From the NCBI GenBank assembly GCA_022844345.1, contig JALHLU010000008.1:1-64000 (forward strand): DNA of 64,000 bases. The letters run 5' to 3'. The notes under the pieces are model-generated. The model searched no databases. It saw nothing but the letters and a program-made list of their open reading frames with translations, and was not told the origin of the DNA. The DNA is from Hyphomonadaceae bacterium. GTDB lineage: Bacteria > Pseudomonadota > Alphaproteobacteria > Caulobacterales > Hyphomonadaceae. Positions 2,862 through 23,098 of the stretch are shown in pieces (position 1 is the stretch's first letter; every line of letters begins with the position of its first letter). The position numbers and the translations under genes were made by a program.

Positions 2862-3217
2862 GTAACGTCCCCGCTAGCCGGCCCTCTTCCCACCGGATCA
2901 TGCGGGGACTTAACACGGCTGCCCACGGTTGCCGACGACTTCCGGAACGTCAAGCGGACTGGCGAATACGACCAGCTTTGGTCGTTCGTCGTACCGTGCT
3001 CGAGGACCGTTTGGGCCCCAGGGTCGCCGTAGCCGGGAATATGGCAATCCGGCAGGGTCGATCCAGTTAAGCCATTCACCGACGACGCTGCGTTGCGGCG
3101 GGACCTCGCCCACAAACTGCCATCGCACAACAAGTTGGAGATTTGTTTGCGTCGGCCCCCTGTCTCGGACAGTGTCGTTCGGAAGCGACGAGAGATGCGC
3201 GGCTGGGGAGACAGGAC
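2862..3217. other. Divergent intergenic region between TIR-WD40 and GMC genes
   Basis: This 356-base gap separates two divergent genes and must hold both promoters. Its main recognisable content is one copy of the intergenic repeat family (3010-3114). I cannot identify promoter boxes with confidence, and the ORFs that cross it look like chance frames. Confidence 0.5.
3010..3114 (+). repeat. Intergenic repeat family, copy A
   Basis: About 105 bp. It starts TTTGGGCCCC, continues with a CCGTAGCCGGGAATATGGC block, then TCGATCCA, and ends GCGGCGGGACCTCGCCCA. The same blocks in the same order and orientation recur at 6465-6570 and 5435-5540. It lies upstream of the GMC gene, with no protein-coding potential that I can defend. 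Confidence 0.8.
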
Positions 3218-5059
3218 ATGACTGATGGATTTGATTTTGTTGTGGTGGGCGGCGGCTCGGCGGGCGCGGTCATCGCCGCGCGGCTCAGCGAAGATCCCAA
3301 ATGCCGCGTCGCGTTGATCGAGGCGGGCGAGCGCCCTCCCGAACGCGAGTTGATGCCCGCAGCTTGCGCCAGCCTTCAACTCGATCCCGAGACCGATTGG
3401 ATGTTCTGGGCTGATCCCGGCAAGGCGGGGCTTGGCCTCAAAGGGCGACGGATGCGGACCCCGCGCGGCAAGATGCTCGGTGGATCATCGGGCATCAACT
3501 ACATGGTCTGGGTTCGGGGGCATCCTCAGGATTTCGACCATTGGGCAGAACTCGGCGCGGACGGCTGGCGCTATGACGATGTGCTCCCCGCGTTCAAACG
3601 CATGGAGGATCTTGTTCCCAGCAATGAAGTCGTCGTCGATCAAGATGCGCACGGACGCGGCGGTCCGGTCGGCGTCGCTGTGCGGTCGCCCATGTTCCCC
3701 GCGACCCGTCAGTTTGTTGTCGCCGCTGAGGCGTCCGGCATCCCGCGCGGCGACTACAATGGCCGCGACCGTCTCAACCCGGCAGGCGTTTCCTCAGCGC
3801 ATCAAACCAATACGCGCAAGGGAACCAGGTCGAGCACGTATCACGCCTATCTGGAGGGGGCGGCGGAAGCGCGCCCCAATCTGACGATCATCACCGGTGC
3901 TTTGGTCACGCGCGTGGTGCTGGAAGGCAAAGGCGATACGCTGACAGCCAGCGGTATTGAGTATCGTGACAAGGCCGGGGCAAGCCACACAGTTCACGCG
4001 CGCCGCGAGGTTATCCTGAGCGCCGGCGCCATCGGCTCACCGCATATTCTGATGCTCTCCGGGATTGGGCCGCGCCGCGAACTTGAAGCGGCCGAAATCG
4101 CCGTCCGGCATGAGCTGCCTGATGTCGGCAAGCACCTCAAGGATCACCCATTCGTACCGATGCTGTTCCCCGCCCCTGGCATCGGCGTGCCTCTGATCGA
4201 GATTGGGCCGTCATTCGGCGTGGACGCATTGCGTGCGCCGGCGGGTCCCTTGCCGGCCGATCCTGCGGACGATGCAAAGCTGACAGGCGACCTCGCCGAA
4301 CTCAAAGCCGAAGCCGAACGCCGGATTGACGAATGGCAAGCGACCGGCAGCAGCTATGCCGCCTCGTCCTTCAATGATGCGAGCGCGTTTTTCTCGACGG
4401 GCCTTGGTGCCGACTACAGTCATGATGCCCAGATCAGCTTCATGCCCGGCGGGGTGTCCGCTGATTTGATCCGCAACCAGCTCAACATGGACGGCGCAAA
4501 ACTGTTCGAAGACTTGGACAAAACTTATGCGCTCGATGCCGAGGTAGTCACATTCCTCATTCAACTCGAACTTCCGCGCAGCACAGGCGAGATTGTGATC
4601 GAGAGCGCCGATCCGGCTGCTCCACCCCGCATCGACATGAATTACTACGCTGATCCGGTCGATTTGAAGGTGATGGTGAACGCGATGCGTCGTGGCCTCG
4701 ACATTGCCGCCAAATGGCCGGCGCCTGCCAAGCTGGGGCCATGGACGGCCCCGCCGGAACTTTCCCGCAAACACGGCCACGTCTCAGGCGAACGACCGAG
4801 CGATGCGCTGCTCGAAAACACCGCGCTGCACTTTTCGCACACAACCTATCACCTGTCCTGCACTTGCCGGATCGGCAGCGTCGTCGATTCCCGCCTTCGC
4901 GTTTTTGGCGTCAAGAACCTGCGTGTGGCGGACGCGAGCGTGATGCCCGACATCACGAGCGGCAACATCAACGCGGTCGTGATCATGATCGGCGAAAAAG
5001 CGGCCGAAATCATTGCGACCGACCACGGCGTGAACCTTACGCACTTCGCTGGCGACTGA
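3218..5059 (+). CDS. GMC family FAD-dependent oxidoreductase
   Basis: A 613-residue flavoprotein of the glucose-methanol-choline family, which oxidises alcohols or related substrates with FAD; the substrate cannot be read from the sequence. The dinucleotide-binding motif VVVGGGSAG is at residues 8-16, the FAD signature GRRMRTPRGKMLGGSSGINY at about 76-95, and the C-terminal pair that forms the active site is H545 (in YHLSCTCRIG) and N585 (in SGNINAV). The start was moved from an upstream ATG to 3218 because GGGGAG precedes it at the right distance and the FAD motif then sits at the N-terminus as usual. No signal peptide is visible. The ACP-like gene follows after 116 bases. Confidence 0.92.
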   Translation: MTDGFDFVVVGGGSAGAVIAARLSEDPKCRVALIEAGERPPERELMPAACASLQLDPETDWMFWADPGKAGLGLKGRRMRTPRGKMLGGSSGINYMVWVRGHPQDFDHWAELGADGWRYDDVLPAFKRMEDLVPSNEVVVDQDAHGRGGPVGVAVRSPMFPATRQFVVAAEASGIPRGDYNGRDRLNPAGVSSAHQTNTRKGTRSSTYHAYLEGAAEARPNLTIITGALVTRVVLEGKGDTLTASGIEYRDKAGASHTVHARREVILSAGAIGSPHILMLSGIGPRRELEAAEIAVRHELPDVGKHLKDHPFVPMLFPAPGIGVPLIEIGPSFGVDALRAPAGPLPADPADDAKLTGDLAELKAEAERRIDEWQATGSSYAASSFNDASAFFSTGLGADYSHDAQISFMPGGVSADLIRNQLNMDGAKLFEDLDKTYALDAEVVTFLIQLELPRSTGEIVIESADPAAPPRIDMNYYADPVDLKVMVNAMRRGLDIAAKWPAPAKLGPWTAPPELSRKHGHVSGERPSDALLENTALHFSHTTYHLSCTCRIGSVVDSRLRVFGVKNLRVADASVMPDITSGNINAVVIMIGEKAAEIIATDHGVNLTHFAGD

Positions 5060-5063
5060 CCGG

Positions 5064-5130
5064 ATTGGGCCCCGCTTCTGCCCAAAAGCCGTATTTCTCA
5101 AATGGCGCGCTCGATTCAATCCAGTCAGTC
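5064..5130 (+). repeat. Intergenic repeat family, degenerate copy D
   Basis: Begins at the GMC stop codon region with ATTGGGCCCC and later carries TCGATTCAATCCAGTCAGTC, which matches the middle of copies B and C. The 3' GGCGGGAGGTCGCCC block is missing, so this is a partial or decayed copy. The sequence just before it (GACTGACCG) is shared with copy C, so both repeats abut or include the stop codon of the gene before. Confidence 0.5.
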
Positions 5131-5175
5131 GCTTAGCATCCGCTGCGTCGATGCAGAGCTGGCCGGAGGGCAAAC

Positions 5176-5430
5176 ATGAGTGTCCGTGAAGACCGACTTT
5201 CCGACGTCCGGAGGATCGTGGCGCACGCGATCGGCCTGACATCCGCCGATCTGGCGGACGAAGTCGATTTGCTGACGACCTTTGCCGCTGATTGGCGGGC
5301 AATCGGTGTGGCGATATCTAGGATTGAAGAGAAGTACCGCGTGAACATCCCAATGGACGAGGTGGGCGAGAGTCCCACCATATTGGCGATTTACCGCGCA
5401 GCAGCGCATCACGCTAATTGGCCGGACTGA
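5176..5430 (+). CDS. Acyl-carrier-protein-like small protein lacking the modified serine
   Basis: An 84-residue protein with the length and helix pattern of an acyl carrier protein: an N-terminal helix with DVRRIVAHAIGL, a DLLTTF loop, then a helix resembling the second ACP helix ending in IEEKYRVNIP (50-59), as in the classic EEEF-IEIP stretch. Where carrier proteins have Asp-Ser-Leu and attach phosphopantetheine, this one reads D39-W40-R41, so it cannot be loaded in the usual way. The start has GGAGG at 5164-5168. It follows the GMC oxidoreductase in the same direction, so a shared transcript is likely. The ACP assignment rests on pattern alone; it could be a structural or docking protein. 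Confidence 0.6.
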   Translation: MSVREDRLSDVRRIVAHAIGLTSADLADEVDLLTTFAADWRAIGVAISRIEEKYRVNIPMDEVGESPTILAIYRAAAHHANWPD

Positions 5431-5434
5431 CCGC

Positions 5435-5540
5435 CTCGGGTCCCCGCGCTAGCCGTAACCCGGGATTTTGCAATCGGACTGAGGCGATCCAATCCTACCA
5501 GTCAATCTGCCCTAACCAACCCGGCGGGAGGTCGCCCAAA
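5435..5540 (+). repeat. Intergenic repeat family, copy C
   Basis: About 106 bp directly after the stop of the ACP-like gene. It carries GGGTCCCC, then AGCCGTAACCCGGGATTTTGC, CTGAGGCGATCCA, CAGTCAATC and finally GGCGGGAGGTCGCCCA, in the same order as copies A and B. Confidence 0.75.
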
Positions 5541-5597
5541 GGGCGACATCGGTGATATGGTCGCGGGCCCAGCGGCAATAGGGCTGCGGCCAATGCG

Positions 5598-6311
5598 TCA
5601 GAGCGAGAAGTCGCCGCCTGTCTGATCGGCAAGACACTTCGACAACTGCTCGCGAATGTTCTGGCGCATCGCGACAAATGCGGCTTTGGCGACCACCTCG
5701 TTCAGGTCTTCGCCCGGTTCTTTGACATAGTTGAGATTGGCGCCCGGGTTTGCCCAGACATGGCAGTTCGCCACAATGGTGCGATTCTCAAGCTCGATGA
5801 CAAGCGCTTCGACCTTGAGCAGGCCTCCTTCAAAGCTGTCGCCGTCGGTGAGGCGTGCTTCCTGGTACTCACTCTGGGCGTAGAAGCTCACAAACGGCGT
5901 GGCGATCGCCTCTTCGAACAACCTGATCAAGCCGCTGTCAGCCGGATCGTCGCTTTCGAAGTCGGTACGGGCCACAATTGCGAGCGCCGACGCCAGGGGA
6001 GACATCAGAAAAAGGTCAAGCTCCGGCGGTCCGCCGTTCTCAAAGCTGTCAAGCGGCAGAAACGCCAGATTGGTCGAGCCCGGCTCGCCCGAGTTGTTTG
6101 CGAACGGCTTCTGTGCGCCGCGCACTGGCTGAACCCCTGCATCCGTGTCGATGCTTCCGAAAAGGTTCCTGATCTCCTCCCGCTTTGCTTCGACCAGCGG
6201 ACGAAACCTCGCCATGACCTCCGCATTCGTCTCGGCCTTGTCGCCGCACGCTGCCGTCAGGCAAATGACCAGCGTCGCCAGGCCCAAGCGAGCATACCGA
6301 ACCTTCTTCAT
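5598..6311 (-). CDS. Putative lipoprotein of unknown function
   Basis: A 237-residue protein beginning MKKVRYARLGLATLV, a typical signal sequence that ends in LTAAC, an imperfect lipobox, so a lipid-anchored periplasmic location is likely. I recognise no domain in the mature part. It contains an acidic, helical stretch (VMARFRPLVEAKREEIRNL) and a C-terminal helix with FVAMRQNIREQLSKCLA. A longer reading frame begins 25 codons upstream, but the start at 6311 puts the signal peptide at the N-terminus. It is flanked by repeat copies C and B on either side. Confidence 0.7.
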   Translation of the reverse strand: MKKVRYARLGLATLVICLTAACGDKAETNAEVMARFRPLVEAKREEIRNLFGSIDTDAGVQPVRGAQKPFANNSGEPGSTNLAFLPLDSFENGGPPELDLFLMSPLASALAIVARTDFESDDPADSGLIRLFEEAIATPFVSFYAQSEYQEARLTDGDSFEGGLLKVEALVIELENRTIVANCHVWANPGANLNYVKEPGEDLNEVVAKAAFVAMRQNIREQLSKCLADQTGGDFSL

Positions 6312-6947
6312 GGCATTGTTCCATATTTCGTTCCGACAGACTCGTAGGCGAATCTGGCGGGGAAAGAGGGCCAAAGCCCGCGCCATGCACGGCGGCCGGT
6401 CCCGCTCCTGCTTTGTTGCGGCGCGTCATCGGGAAGCGCGGAGCGGGGTAGGTCGAGGGGCCGATTTGGGCCCCGAGGTTTCCGTAACCGAGAATGTGGC
6501 GATCCGGCTGAGTCGATCCACAGCGGTCAGTCAGAGACGGAGCTGCGTTGCGGCGGGAGGTCGCCCAGAAGCGGTCATAGCGCATCATTGGAGGCAGGCC
6601 ACGACCCAGCCTCAACAGCGGACACGACCTCAGCAACTGTAATTTGTGAACAGGTGCCGAAAGATGACCCCTCCGCCTCCAGCGAAATCAATCTCGTAGC
6701 GCGCTTGTCGGCGCCGGGACCCCGTGCCGGCTCACAATTTTGCCGATCTCCGTAGTCTGCACACGGCTGTGGTCCCCTGTTCTTTCAATACTTCTGCTTG
6801 CCGGCCTCCCGCGTTCCGTAAGGATACCGGGCCGCACGATCTGTAAGTCGCGTACTATCGTCGGACGGCCTACCTCCTATAGGCTGTGACTAGGCGCCCT
6901 TTTCGGGCAGTGGCCTTGCTGCGCAGACCAACTAGCTGGAGCTGCTC
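6312..6947. other. Long intergenic region holding repeat copy B
   Basis: These 636 bases separate two divergent lipoprotein genes. Apart from repeat copy B (6465-6570) I see no gene. The ORFs that cross it lack ribosome binding sites and recognisable protein features. The promoters of both neighbours must lie here. Confidence 0.5.
6465..6570 (+). repeat. Intergenic repeat family, copy B
   Basis: About 106 bp starting TTTGGGCCCC, with CCGTAACCGAGAATGTGGC, GGCTGAGTCGATCCA, GGTCAGTCAGAG and CTGCGTTGCGGCGGGAGGTC. It aligns along its full length with copy A at 3010-3114; the GCTGCGTTGCGGCGGGA block is identical in both. Confidence 0.85.
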
Positions 6948-8762
6948 ATGGAATTTTTTATTCGGCATTGCATCGGCCGAGCCCTGGTCGGGGCAGCGGT
7001 GCTCGCCCTGTCGGCCTGCTTCAGCTTTGACGCCAAGCCGTTTACGCTCGACATACCCGCCGGGCAACTTCGTATGAGCGGGGAGATGACAAGCGGCTTG
7101 GGCTTGGTCGCTCCCGAAACGCCGGCCCCTGCGGACACTGCTGATCACAGCGTTGCGCAGGTGCAGCCGGAGGAGCCGCCAATGCCGGATCAGCTGGTCA
7201 GCGCTGTAAGTGCAGAGGGGCCTCCAGCCGAAGGGAATGCCCACATCGGGGATCATGCTTTCGCGGTTGATCGCGTCGTTGTGACAGGGCGACGAGAAGC
7301 ATCTCGCCGCGTGCCCGATTATTCGCCGGATGAGACGGCGTCCTTGATCTGCCTGATGCAGAAGATTGGTTTTGATGACGGCAATGCGCGCAAGGCACAC
7401 GCGGCGACTCTGGTCGCGCGCGATATGCGGGTCGCTATGACGGCAGGCCGGGCAACACCAGCTGAGATCGAAACGGCTGAACGCAGGCGCGAGGACGCCG
7501 TCCAGAGCGCTCTCAGCCCGCTCCCGATTGTGGACATCTTCTTCAGCCCAATCGTCAGAAAGAGGGACCTGCCCCAGCCATCCTACAAGGGCGTCAATCT
7601 TGAGAACATCACATCTGTTTCCGTCTTCGAGAATGGAAGGGAAGTGACGGTGGTTTCGGGCGCGGCGCGAAACACTGGCAAGAACAGGATGGAGATGCCT
7701 CCACTTACTCTGGAGGCGCTGGATCGCTGGGATTTCGTCCTGTCCGGTCAGTCGTCCTTGCTGCCTTTCCAGTATCTCGAACCTGGTGAAGCAAGATCCT
7801 TTGATATCCGCCTGCTCAACCCGCCCAGGAACACCAGCGACGTCTACGTGCATTTCGCGCCGCCCTTCCGGTACAGATGGCCGCGCGACTGTGCGTTCTT
7901 CGATCTTGCAAGGTCGACGTCCGATGGCCTGCTTGGCGAGCTGCCGGCATCGCAGTCCAAGTCAGTGTGGGAAATCATCGACGACCAGCTCGACGCATAC
8001 ACCCTGGCAAAGGCGCCCGAACTGGCTGAGGGGGCGGTTGCCAATACCTATTCGGCAACGGAACTCAATTCGCTCACGCGATACTTTCGTCGTGAAGCCG
8101 CCTGGGCCTGGGACTGCCGGGAGTCAGCAAAATCCGAATGCGCTGGCGCAGATCAGCGCCTGCAATGGCGAGACATGTTTGCGATCGCCGAGGCGGCCGA
8201 CGAGGCCTGGGATGCGGTCCAGGCGTTCAACACTATCGAGAGGGCGCAATCGGAGAAGGCCCTCTCATCCCAGGCAGTGGCGGATGCGGACAAGGTTCGG
8301 AGACATGCGATCAGAGCTCTCTCAGCGCTTGGGGAGGTTGCTCTGCGACGGGCCGGCAGCAGCGTTCCCGACGTTGTCGTGGAGGTCACGGCATCCAGAA
8401 TGAAGCTCGACTCGGCGGGTTTGTACCTGGAAGTTGCCGGCCGCATAAGCAACGGTGCGTCAGAAGCGCGTCGCGTCGACGCCCTGATGATTGCCCTTGT
8501 CGATCGTTTCGGCCTGCCTCTCAGCAGCGTCATCGTGGACGCGAAGACGTTGCTTCCAGCAGGAGCAGGCCACGAGTTCCTACAAATAATTCCCGTCCTG
8601 CGGGGCGGAAGCCAACCCGCGCTGTCGACAAAGACTGCAGGGGTCATCGGCAGAGCTCCGCCTGAAGATATTCCCTGGCAGATCCGCGTGGGCGCGATGG
8701 GCCGGACGAACGCGGGTAACAGTCAACCTGCAGACGGCAGTCAGTTTCAGAGCGAAGAGTGA
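6948..8762 (+). CDS. Large putative lipoprotein with C-terminal FxLYD-like domain
   Basis: A 604-residue protein. The N-terminus MEFFIRHCIGRALVG ends in the lipobox LSAC (C24), so it should be lipidated and exported. The C-terminal part, about 490-560, reads EVAGRISNGASEARRVD followed by DRFGLPLSS and LPAGAGHEF, the strand pattern of FxLYD/DUF3426-type immunoglobulin-like modules. The middle has a helical, charged stretch (about 390-470) and no motif I recognise. GGAG precedes the ATG. No partner gene is adjacent, so function is open. Confidence 0.7.
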   Translation: MEFFIRHCIGRALVGAAVLALSACFSFDAKPFTLDIPAGQLRMSGEMTSGLGLVAPETPAPADTADHSVAQVQPEEPPMPDQLVSAVSAEGPPAEGNAHIGDHAFAVDRVVVTGRREASRRVPDYSPDETASLICLMQKIGFDDGNARKAHAATLVARDMRVAMTAGRATPAEIETAERRREDAVQSALSPLPIVDIFFSPIVRKRDLPQPSYKGVNLENITSVSVFENGREVTVVSGAARNTGKNRMEMPPLTLEALDRWDFVLSGQSSLLPFQYLEPGEARSFDIRLLNPPRNTSDVYVHFAPPFRYRWPRDCAFFDLARSTSDGLLGELPASQSKSVWEIIDDQLDAYTLAKAPELAEGAVANTYSATELNSLTRYFRREAAWAWDCRESAKSECAGADQRLQWRDMFAIAEAADEAWDAVQAFNTIERAQSEKALSSQAVADADKVRRHAIRALSALGEVALRRAGSSVPDVVVEVTASRMKLDSAGLYLEVAGRISNGASEARRVDALMIALVDRFGLPLSSVIVDAKTLLPAGAGHEFLQIIPVLRGGSQPALSTKTAGVIGRAPPEDIPWQIRVGAMGRTNAGNSQPADGSQFQSEE

Positions 8763-8896: not shown

Positions 8897-9415
8897 TTAT
8901 GCCTTTTCGCGCGTCAAGCGCTCTGCAAAGGAGATTCCAACGGCACAAAGTACGAAGGTCAAGTGAATGACAGCAACCATCGCCACTACCTGTATGCTTT
9001 CCAGACTCAGGTCGCCACTCAAGTAAGTCTTCAATGCATGAACCCCTGAAATGGAGATGATGGCGAATGCGAGCTTCAGCTTGAGGTTGTAGGTATTGAC
9101 GTGATCCAGCCAGTCCGGCTTTTTGATATCCTTTTTGTCAAAGTGTCCGGTGGTCACGAAGAGCGATACACCCGCCAGCGCCACAACCCAAACAAGCTGC
9201 GCCACCATCGTCATGTCCACCAGTTCAAGCACCTTGATGATCAGGTCGATCTTTCCGAGGTCACCAAACAGCAAAGTGCTCATCAGCTTGAAGGTTTCCA
9301 GAAGAAACTTTCCCAGAATGCCGAAGATGATCGCTACCAGTCCGATGTAGAAGACCAGCATGGTGATTCTTAAGCCGTAGAGCAGCGTCCCGGCCCCTGA
9401 AAGTAGTTTTTCCAT
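8897..9415 (-). CDS. YqhA/UPF0114 family membrane protein
   Basis: A 172-residue integral membrane protein with about four hydrophobic segments (roughly 15-40, 65-90, 110-130 and 140-160). The sequence matches the YqhA/UPF0114 family in length and layout, including the N-terminal LLYGLRITMLVFYIGL and the central DHVNTYNLKLKLAFAIISISG, which is highly typical. The family has no agreed function. The start is supported by AGGTGAG upstream. It stands alone between accessory genes and the coq7-dsbB pair. Confidence 0.9.
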   Translation of the reverse strand: MEKLLSGAGTLLYGLRITMLVFYIGLVAIIFGILGKFLLETFKLMSTLLFGDLGKIDLIIKVLELVDMTMVAQLVWVVALAGVSLFVTTGHFDKKDIKKPDWLDHVNTYNLKLKLAFAIISISGVHALKTYLSGDLSLESIQVVAMVAVIHLTFVLCAVGISFAERLTREKA

Positions 9416-9622
9416 TCTTGCTCACCTTGAAACAGAGCAGACAGATACCCCAAACTGCGAGCGTGCGCTCTTAGTAACGAGTGCGACGGTTCGCAGCGGA
9501 AAATGCGCTGACCTGCCCCAGAATTTTCGGGCTTCCCCAAGCTTGAATGTCGAACGGCAGCTTTGGGCCCCAATCCAGCCGCTCGGCACGCCAAAAGGAT
9601 CAGCACGCGCAGCGCCCCGAAG

Positions 9623-10156
9623 TTAGATTTTCTCGCTGATGCGGATCGCCAGCCTGCATCCGGCGCGGATTGCGGCCGAGAGCAGGGGATAGGCTGGCGC
9701 CTGCGCGGCGCCTTCGGCCGTGGCCATGTCCTTGTGGGCGATTTCCTCTTCCTGGAACTTCGCCATCTTCGCCGCGAGTTCGTCTTCGCCAGCCTCGCGC
9801 AATTCGGCGACCTGGTCGCCATAGTGCTCCTCGATCACGGTCTCCACCGCTTCGGTGCAGGCGTGCGCCGCCTTCTCGCCGAGCAGCGCCGTGCCGACCC
9901 CCAGCGCGAACCCGGCCGCATGCCAGACAGGTGAAAGCGCCGTTGGCCGAACGTTTCCTGCGGTCAGCATGCGATCAAAAGCGTCAAGATGCTCCTGCTC
10001 CTGTGCAGCCATCTCCTTGAGCTGGCCGACAATGCGGTCCTTTCCGTGCTGTCGCTCGAACACGGCAAGCTGCCCGCCATAGATGGAAACCGCGCCGAAC
10101 TCGCCAGCATGGTCGACGCGCAGCATTTCTTCGCGGCGATTGCGGGAAAGGGTCAT
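9623..10156 (-). CDS. coq7: COQ7-type demethoxyubiquinone hydroxylase
   Basis: A 177-residue di-iron monooxygenase that adds the last ring hydroxyl in ubiquinone synthesis, acting at the inner membrane. The iron ligands are visible in four helices: RVDHAGEFGAV near the N-terminus, AQEQEHLDAF, VEEHYGDQV and QEEEIAHKDM. Length fits bacterial COQ7. Its start codon overlaps the stop of dsbB by four bases (ATGA), so the two are translationally coupled. Confidence 0.95.
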   Translation of the reverse strand: MTLSRNRREEMLRVDHAGEFGAVSIYGGQLAVFERQHGKDRIVGQLKEMAAQEQEHLDAFDRMLTAGNVRPTALSPVWHAAGFALGVGTALLGEKAAHACTEAVETVIEEHYGDQVAELREAGEDELAAKMAKFQEEEIAHKDMATAEGAAQAPAYPLLSAAIRAGCRLAIRISEKI

Positions 10157-22643: not shown

Positions 22644-22699
22644 TCCTGCGGCGTCGCGCGACCCGGCATCTGTCCCGATTGCATGCGCTGAAAACAAGT

Positions 22700-22729
22700 G
22701 GGGCGGCTTCTGTTGCCAGGCGCCGCCCC
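22700..22729 (-). terminator. Terminator of the tmRNA gene
   Basis: A perfect 8-bp GGGGCGGC/GCCGCCCC stem followed on the minus strand by ACTTGTTTTC. A second hairpin (CCTTAGCT/AGCTAAGG, 22738-22759) lies just upstream, near the 3' end of the coding piece. Confidence 0.75.
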
Positions 22730-22735
22730 GAGCCC

Positions 22736-22910
22736 CGCCTTAGCTTGCTAGAGCTAAGGACTTAGGTTTGGAAATCACCAGCTGCTTACGCAGCGAGGCG
22801 AGCTTCCTGAGCAAAGTTGTCGTTGGCAACTATTGCGTAAAAGGCTTCTATCGGGGCCAAAGCGGGCAAAGTCTTCGCCTTTACACATCCGTCGATCCTG
22901 TGTCGGCCCC
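22736..22910 (-). ncRNA. ssrA: tmRNA, coding piece of permuted gene
   Basis: The 5' end GGGGCCGACACAGGATCGAC (from 22910) is the conserved tmRNA start. Its first seven bases pair with CGGCTCC of the acceptor piece with one G-U. The tag reading frame (22827-22786) encodes ANDNFAQEARLAA and a stop, close to the Caulobacter tag and ending in LAA for protease recognition. The 3' boundary near 22736 is an estimate at the distal hairpin. In this permuted layout the piece lies 3' of the acceptor piece in the precursor. Confidence 0.93.
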
Positions 22911-22940
22911 AGACAGCCCGGCCACGACCGGGGTGAAATC

Positions 22941-23031
22941 TGGTGGAGCCGCCGGGCACTGCCCCCGGGTCCGGTCTGCTTATTACGCGAGGGTTTATCG
23001 CCATAGTTCCCAATCCTTGCGAACGGGGAAC
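22941..23031 (-). ncRNA. ssrA: tmRNA, acceptor piece of permuted gene
   Basis: The piece ends with CGGCTCC, discriminator A and an encoded CCA at 22941. A 5-bp T stem (CCGGG/CCCGG) encloses a 7-base loop GGCAGTG rather than the usual TTCRANY. The 5' part has a GTTCCC/GGGAAC hairpin. About 30 bases separate it from the coding piece and are expected to be removed. The 5' end is an estimate from the promoter position. Confidence 0.88.
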
Positions 23032-23037
23032 ACGATC

Positions 23038-23065
23038 AATATAGGCGCGAAAGCCTTAACCGCAA
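23038..23065 (-). promoter_or_regulatory. Promoter of the tmRNA gene
   Basis: On the minus strand TTGCGG (23065-23060) and TATATT (23043-23038) are separated by 16 bases. Transcription would begin near 23031, at the 5' edge of the acceptor piece. Confidence 0.6.
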
Positions 23066-23098
23066 ACAACTGATCTCTGTTCCCGAATACGGCTCCCG

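Follow-up and report, generated by a model that had tools for sequence, protein, structure and literature searches.

Arrayed repeats as putative joints of integron-like gene cassettes, with a short tyrosine recombinase as the probable enzyme

The first 64,000 nucleotides of contig JALHLU010000008.1 (C8; assembly GCA_022844345.1), from a Hyphomonadaceae bacterium, begin with five copies of a repeat of about 130 bp, set between accessory genes. This whole stretch is called the window below, and the genome that contains it the home genome. The repeats probably serve as sites at which a short tyrosine recombinase of about 214 residues moves gene cassettes, much as in an integron. Chances are roughly even that this system represents a second class of gene-cassette system apart from integrons, widespread in Proteobacteria and marked by three traits: catalytic-domain-only recombinases; a GGACATT-type core; and large enzyme-free arrays left behind.

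The proposed model runs as follows. Each ~130-bp copy would carry two recombinase-type sites, one inverted at the 5' end (GAnTGnCnG...GGGCCCC) and one direct at the 3' end (TCGCCCAAAAnCnGnCATT), and some copies would hold a third in the middle. A cassette would extend roughly between the CATT motifs of two successive repeats, often with a single gene in either direction. The ~214-residue enzyme, predicted to consist of a catalytic domain only, would act at the core to excise, insert, and shuffle cassettes, and recombination would take place mainly at the right-end core. The enzyme that catalyzes exchange, the sites exchanged, and the exact cleavage point are putative assignments drawn from sequence comparison. 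Presumably, the home genome has lost the recombinase gene or is served in trans.

Repeat arrays and homology breakpoints

Folding of single copies and of alignments was uninformative, so a sequence-only model (R1), built from 21 repeat copies, was chosen for genome searches. R1 finds 27 matches in the home genome (E 6e-5 or better): ten on contig C16 (1.7–21.9 kb); nine on C12 (99–134.7 kb); five on C8, in the window; and one each on C15, C11, and C4. Two of the nine C12 matches are halves of a single copy with an internal duplication of ~94 bp (L033 15679–15902). Copies lie near the ends of contigs C8, C12, C11, and C4, as would be expected where repeats break an assembly. The repeats form two subfamilies, with both ends in common and different middles. 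R1 matches occur in 19 of 101 genomes (the home genome and 100 relatives), among them 12 of the 15 genomes of the genus, home genome included; the family, picked out in the window by a first-pass annotation, is therefore not confined to that locus. At least 33 matches each were found in genomes G006 and G010.

The analysis of array layout took in the home genome and parts of ten more genomes of the genus and of two from the family; it rests on 122 profile hits with E up to 0.05. All 74 pairs of neighboring repeats at most 6 kb apart share one orientation (a few are perhaps split copies), and opposed neighbors were found at no distance in the analyzed stretches. A median gap of 1.6 kb separates neighboring repeats. 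With a simple gene finder, 28 gaps come out empty, 29 hold one gene, 12 hold two, and five hold more; 44 genes run along the repeats and 26 in the opposite direction. Gene types in the arrays include TIR proteins and, as read by eye, an AMP-ligase-like protein, a GFA-type enzyme, and an antitoxin-like protein; Pfam checks covered the window genes, and the other gene types were assigned by reading the sequence.

Breakpoints of homology between genomes were taken from 13 homologous segments (300 bp or more, at 80% identity or more, between different genomes), with TIR paralogues and contig-end endpoints excluded. Fourteen of the 20 internal endpoints coincide with a repeat to within 25 bp in one or both genomes of the pair, against 2.2 expected; the nominal p is 9e-10, with endpoints that are not fully independent. 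By this measure, repeats hold far more of the homology breaks between genomes than chance would place there. Base-level views place several breaks precisely: agreement between L091 and L100 starts at GACATCCGTA; that between L033 and L091 starts at GCGAC(A/G)TTGC; and that between L094 and L098 runs to GTCAT, followed by divergence. Homology between L099 and L126 starts at the core and, judged by alignment ends, stops at the next core in L126. In the pairs L096/L125 and L105/L108, divergence lies inside the repeat, 5' of the core.

The first-pass annotation had suggested a mobile or regulatory element tied to the accessory block. The breakpoints bear out the link to mobile accessory genes. However, target-site duplications flank only two of 79 copies (1.76 expected), so that the check for flanking duplications came out negative; together with the single orientation within arrays, this makes the repeat better read as a cassette boundary than as a mobile element. 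Non-autonomous transposed repeats, of the miniature inverted-repeat transposable element (MITE) or repetitive extragenic palindrome (REP) type, could accumulate in an accessory region and would leave related copies dispersed between genes, even a half site such as that at 9551 of the window; duplications at the chance level and 74 of 74 neighboring pairs in one orientation make such an origin highly improbable.

The home genome contains seven paralogous TIR-type genes of ~540–564 residues (L031 3859, 16458, and 18367; L032 58 and 1979; L033 15980; L034 17582). The label rests on reading for the seven paralogues, and on a Pfam check for the TIR gene of the window. Several of the seven begin ~85 bp past a repeat. 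They represent one cassette type amplified in the home genome.

Repeat copies ~85 bp before several paralogous TIR genes of ~556 residues might also be regulatory or terminator sequences, duplicated along with those genes. This is very unlikely, as the neighbors of other copies are unrelated genes of both orientations, and the window copies have no Rfam match and no conserved fold. Moreover, a motif common to recombinase loci of other lineages, described next, would be unexpected for such a sequence.

A site motif behind recombinase genes

Short recombinase genes lie among the repeats in three genomes of the genus (G001, G006, and G011) and in one of another genus (G041). The ~214-residue product is conserved, and in all four genomes the gene has the orientation of the repeats and lies 0.9–3 kb from the nearest detected repeat. 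A scan of a genome collection returned at least 536 relatives of this protein. The best 80, used here, come mostly from alpha-, beta-, and gammaproteobacteria, with single records otherwise labelled.

In many relatives CGGCCAAAAGCGGACATT, or a variant, stands 3' of the gene, often past a terminator-like hairpin, and the sequences then diverge. This downstream CGGCCAAAAGCGGACATT matches the 3' end of the repeat; the window repeats terminate in TCGCCCAAAAnCnGnCATT. Expectation maximization on DNA 3' of the recombinase gene, seeded with 60 words taken from those sequences themselves, returned the CGGCCAAAAGCGGACATT motif in all eight best runs listed, at about 58 of 79 loci. At a threshold of 12, a + site lies within 260 bp downstream in 53 of 80 loci and a minus site in 13; on the upstream side, nine loci have a + site no more than 300 bp from the match. 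The same threshold yields 392 sites in 1.19 Mb, versus 45 with column-shuffled matrices.

The motif was retrained on 74 loci, with the five nearest relatives excluded (the iteration began from the first matrix, which had included those five). Its three best matches in the window are 9551 on the minus strand, at the array edge; 6560; and 113, in that order. Nine of the 13 window matches scoring at least 9.6, a threshold set afterwards, lie in the repeats or the half site, which make up 1.2% of the window. The right ends of the home genome's own copies score above the 95% null in 21 of 22 cases, and above the 99% null in 19. In the reverse test, a matrix from repeats only placed 49% of 78 other loci above the 95% null and 22% above the 99% null.

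Inverted partners, 20–139 bp from 149 strong sites, number 28 upstream and 14 downstream; this roughly twofold upstream excess is moderate. Some sites in other lineages resemble paired hairpins. A self-repeat search in the 80 recombinase loci had a mixed outcome; some of its repeats, in L158 and L199, look coding.

Plasmids offer a further view. In Sinorhizobium meliloti, database alignments of the recombinase region stop at recurrent points, and these ends appear to fall in part on such sites. In L238, three of six alignment ends picked by eye coincide with two strong sites 45 bp apart and one with a weak site (score 8.4, 95% null 8.3); in L237, one of seven does so.

The short recombinase, the rivals for its role, and the window

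The Pfam Phage_integrase match covers residues 35–200 of 214. The predicted structure (mean pLDDT, or predicted local distance difference test, 83) consists of a catalytic domain preceded by ~25 low-confidence residues, and neither the Pfam match nor the model, a catalytic fold alone, contains an N-terminal core-binding domain. The catalytic residues R65, K93, H162, R165, H188, and Y197 are invariant in all 19 aligned sequences. Of solved structures, XerA, XerH, and Cre match best; that of the Vibrio integron integrase (2a3v) also matches, at rank 17. Among profiles, the protein weakly matches NF007371 (tyrosine-type DNA invertase) and reaches 19 bits against TIGR02249 (integron integrase), whose cut-off is 265. 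The gene is carried by 62 of 398 sampled genomes of Proteobacteria (E 1e-40), representing 49 of 213 genera, and by 405 of 72,556 plasmids (E 1e-30 or better).

Two plasmid loci have neighbors of note. On a Roseomonas mucosa plasmid (L233 9153–15054), two short recombinase genes enclose four other genes; ahead of each recombinase gene stand a RelE/ParE-type toxin gene and a further small gene. On a Pseudomonas plasmid (L232 7218–12640), a phosphite-use operon lies directly 5' of the gene; it is common to many Klebsiella plasmids at ~98% identity, with its left edge beside a strong inverted site. This block was not used as a boundary case: the left edge is near a site but unclean, and the right edge is off any site.

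Another enzyme, for example a Xer protein, might move cassettes bounded by these repeats, with the short recombinase as a passenger. Genomes rich in arrays and devoid of the short recombinase (G000 and G010) fit that idea, as do the XerC/XerD-like genes present in the home genome and in relatives. It is nevertheless unlikely, for whichever way the test is run, the repeat ends match the motif that follows the gene in distant bacteria, and a passenger of a single lineage would not predict that. Seven Phage_integrase matches occur in the home genome, none of them inside the arrays. One tyrosine recombinase, on contig C17, was dropped as a candidate; its match to the profile of integron integrases is broken into two parts and stays under the cut-off. 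At that locus (L051 10591–12657), the recombinase has 286–296 residues and lies directly 5' of a gene that, as read by eye, encodes an IS91-type transposase.

Several observations weigh against a cassette system run by the short recombinase. The gene is absent from the home genome, with its 27 repeat matches, from G010, with at least 33, and from 11 of the 15 genomes of the genus in all (home genome included; present in four). This absence from most array-bearing genomes is the main weakness of the proposal; it also parallels the integron clusters without integrase (CALIN) described in PMC8618304. Conversely, G003 carries the gene on a fetched stretch where repeats were not detected. Over the 101 genomes, repeats occur in 19, the gene in 20, and both in six (3.8 expected); this is no clear association and is uninformative. 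A repeat-type 3' end behind the gene is clear only in L131 and L132 of nine loci in the family, and weak or misplaced in the rest. Only five of the 13 Sinorhizobium alignment ends lie on sites, the other eight (two in L238, six in L237) lying off them. In the pairs L031/L091 and L091/L100 the genes are shared and the repeat bodies that follow them differ, so exchange is not confined to the 3' core, and left-end exchange or repeat replacement must take place too. Finally, the two ends within a copy show no excess complementarity (5.40) over ends taken from different copies (5.59).

In the window itself, the first-pass annotation listed three full copies and one partial copy in the same direction. 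All are present on the + strand. Its inventory needs one addition, because GGGCCCC near position 18 belongs to a further full copy; and the copy called partial, itself real, spans 5054–5170 and has a degenerate 3' end. Copies at 3010 and 6465 share 76% identity, gap-free, over 123 bases, and the five copies score E 1e-8 to 3e-24 with an iterated nucleotide profile. The reported lack of copies from 10 to 64 kb holds: the genome-wide R1 search gives no match there, and the iterated profile finds none past 6.6 kb. The GGGCCCC noted near 9562 is indeed there, as part of an inverted left-end site that ranks first for a motif built from other bacteria. GGGCCCC by itself is uninformative (nine matches in the window, 17.5 expected). 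The features are as follows.

9–136, + strand: repeat copy 1, second subfamily (R1 model E 1.5e-20); right-end site 113–134, motif score 15.2; inverted left-end site 7–28, score 9.6
300–2861, − strand: gene between copies 1 and 2, encoding 853 residues with a TIR domain and WD40-type repeats (Pfam TIR_2 5e-23, WD40)
3005–3125, + strand: repeat copy 2 (R1 model E 7e-25); right-end site 3105–3126, motif score 10.4
3218–5059, + strand: gene between copies 2 and 3, GMC oxidoreductase (Pfam GMC_oxred_N 3e-48, GMC_oxred_C 2.5e-31)
5054–5170, + strand: repeat copy 3, overlapping the stop codon of the preceding gene (R1 model E 1.4e-12); inverted left-end site 5053–5074, score 11.6; right end degenerate, score −4.6
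5176–5430, + strand: gene between copies 3 and 4, 84-residue protein (open reading frame, no Pfam match)
5425–5555, + strand: repeat copy 4, overlapping the stop codon of the preceding gene (R1 model E 8e-21); right-end site 5531–5552 weak, motif score 5.2
5598–6311, − strand: gene between copies 4 and 5, lipoprotein-like as judged by eye from its start (gene call, no Pfam match)
6456–6582, + strand: repeat copy 5 (R1 model E 3e-26); right-end site 6560–6581, score 16.4; middle site 6512–6533, score 14.2; inverted left-end site 6454–6475, score 10.0
6948–8762, + strand: gene after copy 5, 604-residue protein (open reading frame, no Pfam match)
8897–9415, − strand: UPF0114 membrane protein gene, last before the array edge (Pfam UPF0114 1.6e-23)
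9551–9572, − strand: inverted left-end half site, edge of the array or island (motif score 17.3, rank 1 in the window)
9623–10156: COQ7 gene, adjoining the half site

Two other features were noted in the window. The TIR/WD40 gene contains a 21-bp tandem duplication (893–934; 95% identity), its length a multiple of three. A permuted, two-piece tmRNA of alphaproteobacterial type lies at 22697–23070.

Relation to known recombination systems

Integrons comprise arrays of single-gene cassettes, ~100-bp one-way sites, and a tyrosine recombinase, according to PMC8618304, PMC9024848, and PMC3053210. PMC3053210 gives attC sites a length of 57–141 bp, with two opposed simple sites and the core GTTRRRY / RYYYAAC. 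The likeness to integrons and CALIN lies in one-way arrays of single-gene cassettes; sites made of two opposed simple sites; a tyrosine recombinase; and arrays that lack a recombinase. In contrast, the present arrays lack IntI, have a GGACATT-like core instead of GTTRRRY, and give no support to a folded-strand structure. The short recombinase also differs from integron integrase, in that both the integron-specific insertion and the core-binding domain are missing.

The arrays might be an ordinary integron remnant, that is, an integrase-free cluster of unusual attC sites. The layout of the arrays agrees with this, as do the genes between sites, the two opposed simple sites, and the ~130-bp length, inside the attC range quoted from PMC3053210. 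The specific signatures do not. IntI (TIGR02249) above the cut-off was found in none of 13 genomes (the home genome and 12 relatives), and GTTRRRY occurs in the last 22 bases of only two of 77 repeat copies and in one of 51 sites behind the recombinase gene. Nor was the conserved secondary structure that the first-pass annotation had raised found by z-scores, consensus fold, or end complementarity: z-scores for hairpins in single copies range from −1.6 to 0.9 (four copies, both strands), and the aligned copies gave no consensus fold. A remnant of this kind is thus improbable. The repeat system would work like an integron, yet by the features tested, namely IntI, the GTTRRRY core, and fold, it is not one.

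Other relatives of the enzyme differ in domain content or in the sites used. The catalytic domain and catalytic residues of the short recombinase are like those of XerA/C/D, XerH, and Cre, which differ in having an N-terminal core-binding domain. FimB/FimE-type DNA invertases are also about 200 residues long, and the weak NF007371 match points to them; invertases flip a segment between inverted repeats, whereas the repeats here are direct and many. In the available text of one classification of tyrosine recombinases (PMC8138268), core-binding and catalytic regions are assigned to all members, with no catalytic-only group there. No published description of such a system was found in the open-access literature; subscription papers and preprints lay outside the search.

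Among the platforms on which bacteria store and shuffle single genes, integrons are the best known. If the cassette reading is true, these repeats and recombinases would constitute a system parallel to integrons, equipped with an enzyme and sites of its own, and searches based on IntI and attC models would miss it. Chromosomes and plasmids would then hold an extra pool of mobile genes. Moreover, the short recombinase would offer insight into how a tyrosine recombinase works without the usual DNA-clamping domain.

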